This document shows positions 7,121-34,792 of a DNA stretch of 64,000 bases, one piece after another. The notes below the pieces were generated by a model. The model did not search any database and was not told the DNA's origin. It worked only from the letters and a program-made list of their open reading frames with translations. Location: positions 1-64,000 of the forward strand of contig NZ_QBKN01000006.1 of assembly GCF_003054175.1 (NCBI RefSeq), given 5' to 3'. Each line of letters opens with the position of its first letter. The stretch's first letter is position 1. Source of the DNA: Allosediminivita pacifica. Lineage in GTDB: Bacteria > Pseudomonadota > Alphaproteobacteria > Rhodobacterales > Rhodobacteraceae. The position numbers and the translations under genes are program-made.

Positions 7121-7777
7121 TCAAAGCTGTTTTTGGAGACCAGCCGATTTCTGAGTTGTCATTCGAAATCCCTTGAACTCCGCACGAGCAGTTTGAAAGC
7201 TGATGCCCTCGGATTTCAATTCAGATGAGAGTTGTTCGGCATGTGAAGTTTGATATCTTGCGCCAAGAATAACCTCTTTTAGGGGGGTTGTCTCGTTGAA
7301 ATCCGTGAAGAAGTTATTGCCCTCACGAATGCAATTCTTTAATGGGCGAACCAGCCGAAACTCTTTCTCGTAAGACCATTCACTATGCTTTGTCCGCAAT
7401 AATTTTTGGACTAAGATCTTCATGGATGCTCTGGAGTGGTCGACATCCATCGTGGGCTTGATCCGATTTTCTACGTAGTCAATCTTAAACAGAAGCCGCT
7501 CAGGGATCTCAAAGCCCAATGCGACGCCTTTGTGGGAATCCGCGTAGTGAGCCCACATTAGTGGCTGAGACCAATTGCTTGAGAAAGAAATTATTCCATT
7601 GTCCTCAGTGACAATTTTTCGAAACTCTTTGGCCCAAGCTCGTACACTCTTCTCACCCAGATCAAGCGAAAGATACTCAAATGGATCATTCAATTCGTCA
7701 ATCGGCGATACTTTGAGGCGCCGCTTGGACAAAGCTTCAAGCCCCCATTTGGCGGGATAGAATTTATAGACGCGCAT
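7121..7777 (-). CDS. DUF2971 family protein, low GC
   Basis: A 218-aa protein matching DUF2971: it opens with VYKFYPAKWGLEALSKRRL, then NDPFEY, then a central FSSNWSQPLMWAHYADSHKG and a WSYEKEFR motif. The family is found scattered in bacteria, often in accessory regions near defence or mobile genes; its biochemical role is unknown. Composition differs sharply from the neighbours: the line 7261-7320 is 45 percent GC and codons such as AAA, ATT and TTA are common. That suggests recent acquisition. The start at 7777 is an ATG with little recognisable ribosome site. It faces a tandem-repeat array on its upstream side. Confidence 0.75.
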   Translation of the reverse strand: MRVYKFYPAKWGLEALSKRRLKVSPIDELNDPFEYLSLDLGEKSVRAWAKEFRKIVTEDNGIISFSSNWSQPLMWAHYADSHKGVALGFEIPERLLFKIDYVENRIKPTMDVDHSRASMKILVQKLLRTKHSEWSYEKEFRLVRPLKNCIREGNNFFTDFNETTPLKEVILGARYQTSHAEQLSSELKSEGISFQTARAEFKGFRMTTQKSAGLQKQL

Positions 7778-7969
7778 GTGGTCTGTCTAATGCCGATTGC
7801 TGGGCAGGGCAACACAGTCGGCTCGCTGCGGATATTGGTGGCGCCCGGACGAAGAGTAACTACGTCCGTAATCCGGGCGGTTGATCAGCCCGCCGCATCT
7901 GGTAGCGCAAAGAAGTCTGGAACGACGCCCGAGTGCGAAGCCCCCTGCGCGGGATCAAGGGCCGCAGGC

Positions 7970-8873
7970 CCGCCGCGCATCGCAGCCGCGCCCCCACGCG
8001 GCGGCGATTTGGGGACGCTGGGTGCTTCGTGTTGGGGTCTTTCGGAGTTGCTGAGATAAAGCGCGCGGATCAGCGGGTTGGATCGCCACCGCGCGCGGCT
8101 GCGATGCGCGGCTTCGCGCCTTGGATCGGGCGGCGGTGCAGTGCTGGCCGCTCTGCCTTTTGAGTGTGCAGCCCAAGCGCGGAGACGAGGCTCGCCGCGC
8201 ATTGTCATGCTGGAAGCATGCCTCCGGCATGACCGCGCTCCCACGCGGCGGTGATTTGGTGAAGCTAGGCGCGTCGTGTCGGGGTCTTTCGGGGTTGCCG
8301 GGATAGAGCGCGGGGATCGACGGTCGGGATCGCCACCGCGCGCGGCTGCGCTGCGCGGCTTTACGCTTTGGTTCGGGCCGCGGTTCAGTGCTGGCCGCTC
8401 TACCTTCCGAGTGTGCAGCCCAAGCGCGGAGACGAGGCGCGCCGCGCATCGTCATGCTGAAAGCATGCCTCCGGCATGACCGCGCCCCCACGCGGCGGCG
8501 ATTTGGCTGAGGCTGGGTGCGTCGTGTCGAGGTCTTTCGGGTTTGCCGGGATAAAGCGCGCGGATCAGCGGGCAGGATCGCCACCGCGCGCGGCTGCGCT
8601 GCGCGGCTTTACGCTTTGGTTCGGGCCGCGGTTCAGTGCTGGCCGCTCTGCCTTCCGAGTGTGCAGCCCAAGCGCGGAGACGAGGCGCGCCGCGCATCGT
8701 CATGCTGAAAGCATGCCTCCGGCATGACCGCGCCCCCACGCGGCGGCGATTTGGCTGAGGCTGGGTGCGTCGTGTCGAGGTCTTTCGGGTTTGCCGGGAT
8801 AAAGCGCGCGGATCAGCGGGCAGGATCGCCACCGCGCGCGGCTGCGATGCGCGGCTTTGCGCTTTGGATCGGG
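7970..8873. repeat. Tandem array of a ~247-bp unit, about 3.6 copies
   Basis: The same block recurs with anchors (CACGCGG) at 7995, 8242, 8489 and 8737, giving periods of 247, 247 and 248 bases. The last two periods are nearly identical while the first is more diverged and lacks a segment. Units 2-4 carry a short hairpin CATGCC-TCC-GGCATG at the junction. The array ends inside the fourth unit near 8873. Head-to-tail copies without spacers exclude a CRISPR array. Confidence 0.85.
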
Positions 8874-8969: not shown

Positions 8970-9000
8970 AAAAAATGGTGCCGCCCCCGGGGCGGCACCA
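8970..9000 (-). terminator. Rho-independent terminator of the ompW-like gene
   Basis: On the minus strand a 12-bp GC-rich perfect stem with a one-base nominal loop (8976-9000) is followed by a run of six T residues. It lies about 50 bases after the stop of the OmpW-family gene. Confidence 0.85.
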
Positions 9001-9052: not shown

Positions 9053-9667
9053 TCAGAAACGGTGAACGAAGGAGGCGCCGATCGCGACCGGATTGATCTC
9101 GGCGGTGCCGATGGAGTCTCCGTTCAGCTTCGCGTCGGTTTCGATGTTCATGTAACGGACGTTCAGGCGCAGGGAGTCGCGGTCGGAGATCGCCCAATCC
9201 GCGCCGACGGTGGCGGCAAAGCCGAAGCTGTCCTCCAACTCCAGATCGCCAAGGTCTGTCTCTTCGTCGAAGAAGGTGGTGTAGTTCAGGCCGGCGCCGA
9301 AGAATGGCGTGATCTTGGTCTGCGTCGGGACATGGTAGACCAGCGACACGGTGGGCGGCAGGTGCCTGGTCGAGCCGATCTTGGAGCCGCCGAGGGAAAT
9401 ATCATGCTCGAAAGGCGTCGCGGCCAGGAGCTCGATGCCGAGGTTGTCGCGGATGAAGTATTCGCCGGTCAGCGACAGCTGCGTGTCGTCGTCGACCTCG
9501 GCGTCCGCGCCGGCGAGGGTGCCGCTGTCGTCCTGCGGGGAGACCTTGATGACCCCGATGCCGAGGGTCCAGTCCCCCTGGGATTGCGCCATGGCAGGCC
9601 CAGCGAGAGCGGTGGAAAGCGCGCCCACCAGGAGAGGGGAGCCGAGGCTGAGGTTTACGAGCTTCAT
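9053..9667 (-). CDS. OmpW family outer membrane protein
   Basis: Predicted small eight-stranded outer-membrane beta-barrel of 204 aa that lets small hydrophobic molecules through. A signal peptide ends in AMAQS near residue 27. Family features follow: an early WTLGIGVIKVSP strand, YFIRDNLGIELLAATPFEHDI, LPPTVSLVYHVP, FFGAGLNYTTFF and the C-terminal barrel strand ending in Phe (ASFVHRF). The ATG at 9667 begins the signal peptide and has AAGGAAGGG upstream. It is a single-gene unit with its own terminator. The substrate is unknown. Confidence 0.88.
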   Translation of the reverse strand: MKLVNLSLGSPLLVGALSTALAGPAMAQSQGDWTLGIGVIKVSPQDDSGTLAGADAEVDDDTQLSLTGEYFIRDNLGIELLAATPFEHDISLGGSKIGSTRHLPPTVSLVYHVPTQTKITPFFGAGLNYTTFFDEETDLGDLELEDSFGFAATVGADWAISDRDSLRLNVRYMNIETDAKLNGDSIGTAEINPVAIGASFVHRF

Positions 9668-34375: not shown

Positions 34376-34750
34376 GCGCGGAGGGCCGGACGGCCGCTGC
34401 GGTGCAAGCCGCGGAGGAAAGTCCGGACTCACCGAAGTACCGGTGCCGGGTAACGCCCGGGCAGGGCAACCTGACGGAGAGCGCCACAGAAAACAGACTG
34501 CCTCCGGCCTGGCCGGGGGTGAGGGTGAAACGGTGGAGTAAGAGCCCACCGGGGCCCTGGCAACAGGGTCCGCATGGCAAGCCCCACCGGGAGCAATGCC
34601 GAATAGGGGTCTCGCGCGCCGCAAGGCGCAGGGCAGCTTCGGCCCGAGAGATCCGGGTTGGCAGCAGGAGCCGGCGGGCAACCGTCGGCCTCAGATGAAT
34701 GGTCGTCGCCCCGCAAGGGGTACAGAATCCGGCTTACAGGCCCTCCGCGC
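34376..34750 (+). ncRNA. rnpB: RNase P RNA, bacterial type A
   Basis: The catalytic RNA that matures tRNA 5' ends, about 375 nt. The first and last segments pair as helix P1 (GCGCGGAGGGCC at 34376-34387 with GGCCCTCCGCGC at 34739-34750). The conserved GAGGAAAGTCCGGACTC is at 34414-34430, with CCACAGAAAACA, GGTGAAACGGTGGAGTAAGA and the 3' conserved ACAGAATCCGGCTTACA in the expected order. Boundaries are set by the P1 ends and may be off by a few bases. It lies upstream of rpmG, so the two may share local transcription. Confidence 0.95.
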
Positions 34751-34792
34751 ATTTTCGGGCCAGTGATCGGGACAAGGGGGCCCGAATCCGCC

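Follow-up and report, generated by a model that had tools for sequence, protein, structure and literature searches.

A local head-to-tail array of a dispersed palindromic intergenic element in Allosediminivita pacifica

Organization of the repeat locus

The window analyzed here is the whole stretch of 64,000 nucleotides at the start of contig NZ_QBKN01000006.1 of Allosediminivita pacifica. Within it, a head-to-tail array with a whole span of 7931 to 8873 lies between two co-directional genes on the minus strand, an OmpW-family gene (ompW, 9053 to 9667) and a DUF2971 gene (7121 to 7777). The array is located behind a terminator-like hairpin with a T-run (8976 to 9000, minus strand), which is placed to end the ompW transcript; no site of this type (hairpin plus T-run) occurs within the array, the one found being that outside it, at 9000 to 8976. 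The low GC content of the adjoining gene, pointed out in the original prediction, is real (45.7%, compared with 67.8% for the window). The same gene matches the PADLOC candidate defence model PDC-S31 (E value, 6e-31), and elsewhere in the window there is a bacterial class A RNase P RNA gene (34378 to 34752).

The original prediction described a 247-bp tandem repeat of four head-to-tail units, starting at position 7970 and ending in two nearly identical units. TRF recovered the repeat at 7986 to 8873 (period, 248 bp; 3.6 copies; 92% matches; score, 1482), a repeat search of the window gave copy spacings of 247, 248, and 248 bp, and the longest exact direct repeat between positions 7801 and 9050 was 196 bp long, compared with a maximum of 16 bp in 200 dinucleotide shuffles; together, these results confirm the four-unit, head-to-tail layout. 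Units 3 and 4 are identical at 214 of 217 aligned bases, and the three differences agree with the proposed recent duplication of the last two units, while units 2 and 3 are identical at 230 of 248 positions. The start has to be moved upstream, since the first element copy, with its 5' leader, begins at 7931. The period of 247 or 248 bp stands but does not describe a single unit, since each repeat unit is a composite of an element part (189 to 206 bp) and an inter-element part of ~42 bp. Because periods of 247 and 248 bp are not multiples of 3 and shift the reading frame, the array is not a repeated coding module, and a coding tandem repeat was rejected.

Anatomy of the element and its array copies

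Element boundaries and types were taken from an alignment in which the four array copies were set against 15 dispersed ones. The element is ~170 to 215 bp long. It has a 5' leader (GCGCGGAATCAAGG...) followed by a 5' arm; next come an inner stem containing GATTTGG and a loop containing ATAAA, and a 3' arm completes the element. The ATAAA of the loop and a TTGGC motif are conserved. Terminal inverted repeats are present as 20-bp arms, which are paired in 94.1% of cells over 49 copies. Copies are of type A (~188 to 190 bp) or type B (205 to 215 bp), the latter with a hairpin module (TCATGC...GCATGA) that splits the 5' arm. A free-standing REP was rejected for this module, as all of its 12 places in the A. 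pacifica genome are inside element copies (11 in copies detected by the covariance model described below and one in a degenerate copy on contig C2, recognized by eye).

All four array copies are oriented along the plus strand. W1 (7931 to 8119; 189 bp), placed by alignment with the 15 dispersed copies, is of type A, with a normal leader of its own and no hairpin module; its 5' arm (GCCGCGCATCGCAGCCGCGC, 7972 to 7991) and 3' arm (8093 to 8112), with 101 nt between them, are perfect, being 100% complementary. The other three copies are all of type B and have the shortened leader and the spacer in common: W2 (8162 to 8366; 205 bp; hairpin module at 8204 to 8233), W3 (8409 to 8614; 206 bp; module at 8451 to 8480), and W4 (8657 to 8862; 206 bp; module at 8699 to 8728), which is 99% identical to W3. 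The three pieces of inter-element DNA (8120 to 8161, 8367 to 8408, and 8615 to 8656; ~42 bp) are homologous to one another, and just 11 bp of this DNA is left 3' of W4 (TTTGGATCGGG, 8863 to 8873), after which similarity ends.

Dispersal in the genome and in the family

In the draft assembly of the A. pacifica genome (98 contigs, 4.85 Mb), a blastn search with the unit returned 36 matches. Two parts of the unit, of ~120 bp and ~50 bp, recur on many contigs, unlike most of the sequence that separates them. A covariance model built from 13 element copies gave 54 matches in the same genome, which represent 48 distinct places once 6 opposite-strand duplicates are removed and which include a second subfamily with compensatory changes. 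The model also matched 46 of 149 same-family genomes (A. pacifica counted in) and, in a class-level draw, 2 of 190 genomes, both from the same family; in these large draws at most 14 to 19 candidates were scored per genome, and misses therefore carry little weight. A search with an exact 24-base core pattern matched 64 stretches in named genomes, and the titles of all 64 name Rhodobacteraceae/roseobacter genera (including Roseovarius, Pseudooceanicola, Maritimibacter, and Marivita) or MAGs assigned to Rhodobacteraceae, Paracoccaceae, or Alphaproteobacteria. One genome (G150) has at least 40 close copies, and a plasmid comparison yielded 46 records, all from Pseudosulfitobacter or Salipiger, 3 of which cover 80% of the query. 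The search of the unit against the genome and its relatives, suggested as a check along with the original prediction, showed a point missed by that prediction: the unit belongs to a dispersed family, with 48 places in the genome and further copies family-wide.

Nothing in Rfam scored at or above the gathering score at the element, and a known RNA was rejected since the element is below that score throughout. CRISPR was likewise rejected, with just one sub-threshold chance Rfam match; that no RNA or CRISPR family of Rfam reached threshold is consistent with the statement in the original prediction that the unit has no spacers. A description of the element was not found in Rfam or in a literature search that covered work other than the original CIR paper, and this element, which is widespread in the mostly marine Rhodobacteraceae, is apparently uncatalogued.

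Genomic position and presence or absence at individual loci

Genomic position was tabulated for 66 copies at named loci, the remainder of 92 rows after the removal of 21 duplicates on the opposite strand and of 5 rows that were partial or cut at an end. None of the 66 copies overlaps an ORF by more than 60 nt, a count that, like the other position counts, is approximate because ORFs were called by a simple codon-usage script. Leaving out copies with an uncalled ORF on either side or with a shared gap, 49 gaps remained, of which 28 were convergent, 20 tandem, and 1 divergent; among 133 gaps of 50 bp or more that served as controls at the same loci, 20 were convergent, 71 tandem, and 42 divergent, indicating convergent enrichment versus the rest (Fisher P value = 6e-8). 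Where the flanking genes were co-directional, the strand of the copy was the same as that of the genes in 10 cases and opposite in 10. In an earlier set of 55 copies (in which L068 and L087 share a locus, as do L077 and L085), 4 overlapped a called ORF, the 45 copies with both neighbors called were in 27 convergent, 6 divergent, and 12 tandem gaps, and strand was the same in 6 cases and opposite in 6.

One orthologous gap is 345 bp long with the element in G150 and 82 bp long without it in the sister species G337. The flanks of this single empty site are too diverged for the element ends to be read, and a second empty-site query (L208) gave rearranged matches. A conserved locus at ompW was rejected, as 9 other ompW loci all lack the element. 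Visual inspection of the flanks of the 15 dispersed copies showed no target-site duplication.

Secondary structure and covariation

Covariation was evaluated with 49 of 59 aligned sequences, the type B copies of A. pacifica itself being left out. In these 49 copies from many genera, a long imperfect rod has 92.0% of its cells paired, a fraction that may be raised by the omission of ten sequences (near-duplicates, extra copies, and degenerate ends). In the rod, 15 of 31 pairs are changed on both sides (126 such cells), and its covariation is 0.223, compared with a shuffled mean of 0.068 and at most 0.046 in slid controls. The rod fits better than two self-folding inverted palindromes: folding into separate hairpins is weaker (86.1% paired; 102 cells; covariation, 0.177), with the last (c1/c2) hairpin only 70.1% paired, and at column 47, for which the folds compete, 48 of 49 sequences are paired in the rod, compared with 17 of 49 in the hairpin.

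On the aligned strand, A.C mismatches outnumber G.U pairs by 59 to 11 (42 to 11 without the worst pair); counted by sequence, A.C exceeds G.U in 33 of 49, with the reverse in 3 and ties in 13. Since an A.C mismatch here is a G.U pair on the other strand, this excess hints at selection on an RNA made from the complementary strand, and strand-biased mutation is another possible cause. Replication-time correction of imperfect palindromes can homogenise their arms. Quasi-palindrome correction, instead of selection, may therefore account for the covarying arms, and covariation alone is no proof of function.

Likeness to known repeat families

Set beside the literature, the element looks like known repeats in appearance and placement, but the full set of defining traits was found for no family. 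The Caulobacter CcrM-associated intergenic repeats (CIR) are likewise Alphaproteobacterial, intergenic, and longer than 100 bp, with inverted repeats and no conserved ORF, and many CIR copies have GANTC, the CcrM site, in their 5' hairpin (PMC2229807); in our 49-copy alignment, GANTC occurs in 27 leaders. In contrast, CIR is described as two arms plus a linker, at ~110 bp (same source), whereas the longer element studied here pairs end to end, and GANTC is found in none of the four array units. These differences set the element apart by description, and it is possible that it is a CIR subtype.

The palindromic repeats Br-REP1 and Br-REP2 of Bradyrhizobium are also Alphaproteobacterial, and Br-REP1 was originally identified, with three palindromes, where the 3'-UTRs of convergent genes overlap (PMC5082802). 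The Br-REP1 core given there is a 20-nt palindrome of other sequence, and no common core was noticed by inspection. The ERIC and NEMIS (Correia) MITEs are similar by description in being short intergenic palindromes with tens to hundreds of copies and with presence or absence among strains (PMC10969869 and PMC2229807), and their transcribed hairpins can be cut or change mRNA decay (PMC10969869). Unlike them, the element belongs to another host group, and the target duplication listed for them in PMC2229807 was not found here. BIME/REPIN sequences have inverted palindromes, an arrangement that the element appears to share, and have the extragenic location and the tandem clusters in common with it, and tandem units and complementary changes in REPs are described for BIME (PMC2817692); the element differs from them in its longer unit, its conserved loop motif, and the lack of a RAYT in its own genome. 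The comparison also took in PMC12306157 and PMC5107571.

Origin of the array and alternative explanations

We consider it most likely that the unit represents a single copy of an intergenic element of the Rhodobacteraceae that is palindromic, non-coding, and dispersed and that belongs to the same general kind as ERIC, CIR, Br-REP, BIME, or REPIN. As the unit is a dispersed, family-wide element, the array would be a site at which this widespread palindrome has been amplified locally, and the array itself is ordinary in mechanism. We infer that the element spread as a non-autonomous element and that it persists at the 3' ends of genes, where an insertion would do little damage; in a transcript, its long rod might serve to cap or process the ends of mRNAs. 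The array would have started from a type A copy with a type B copy downstream of it. Recombination or replication slippage within the core common to both could have produced A followed by (spacer plus B). Repeated duplication would then have followed, the last step presumably occurring between W3 and W4.

The covariation across genera, the 59-to-11 ratio of A.C to G.U, and the conserved loop ATAAA and TTGGC motifs are also what would be expected of a structured RNA family encoded on the complementary strand, acting in 3'-UTR processing or stability or in trans, with dispersal being secondary. However, copies show no strand preference relative to co-directional neighbors in either set, their loci are not conserved (as seen at ompW), and there is no Rfam match at the element, all of which make this alternative unlikely. 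A version that combines both aspects, in which a Rhodobacteraceae-wide candidate structured RNA at gene 3' ends, with a long rod and a conserved ATAAA/TTGGC loop on the complementary strand, serves to protect or process the ends of mRNAs and at the same time spreads and amplifies in tandem, strikes us as rather improbable. The element may act as an RNA or may be purely selfish DNA.

The inverted palindromic halves, extragenic placement, and tandem clusters also recall a REPIN/BIME moved by a RAYT transposase, which would have made a BIME-2-like tandem amplification of two inverted palindromes, and tandem units with complementary REP changes are described for BIME (PMC2817692). No mobilising enzyme was identified in a search that covered PF01797 (Y1_Tnp, RAYT), which had 0 matches in the A. 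pacifica genome, with 5 of 14 genomes positive in the control set. By comparison of the two genome lists, it occurs in 15 of 149 family genomes, 7 of which bear the element (4.6 expected by chance), and 39 of the 46 element-bearing genomes are without it; RAYT mobilisation was rejected on these grounds, and we regard it as very unlikely. If the array had been created in assembly from a single dispersed repeat, the near identity of W3 and W4 in a draft of 98 contigs would fit, but such an artefact hardly accounts for units that differ from one another (W1 is of type A, and W2 is 93% identical to W3), for the location of the array inside a 188-kb contig, or for the similar clusters in other assemblies, and we give it little credence.

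Roseobacter-group bacteria are abundant in the sea, and the palindromic intergenic element may be to them what ERIC or CIR is to other bacteria. At least two genomes each have tens of copies of it. It marks gene 3' ends, can mislead the prediction of noncoding RNAs and terminators, and offers sites at which recombination can duplicate DNA locally. Given the covariation and the bias of the mismatches toward one strand, the choice between selfish DNA and a working RNA becomes testable.

Other clusters of copies

Copies are also clustered at other places, with three on A. pacifica contig C24 and three in locus L141 of another assembly. The cluster on C24 (near 1260 to 1682 of the extracted locus) is a tandem one in which two of the three copies are shortened and the spacing is ~135 bp. 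On contig C1 (9643 to 9973 of the extracted locus), two copies, each from a different subfamily, lie directly next to each other in head-to-tail order, and a single base separates the two model matches.
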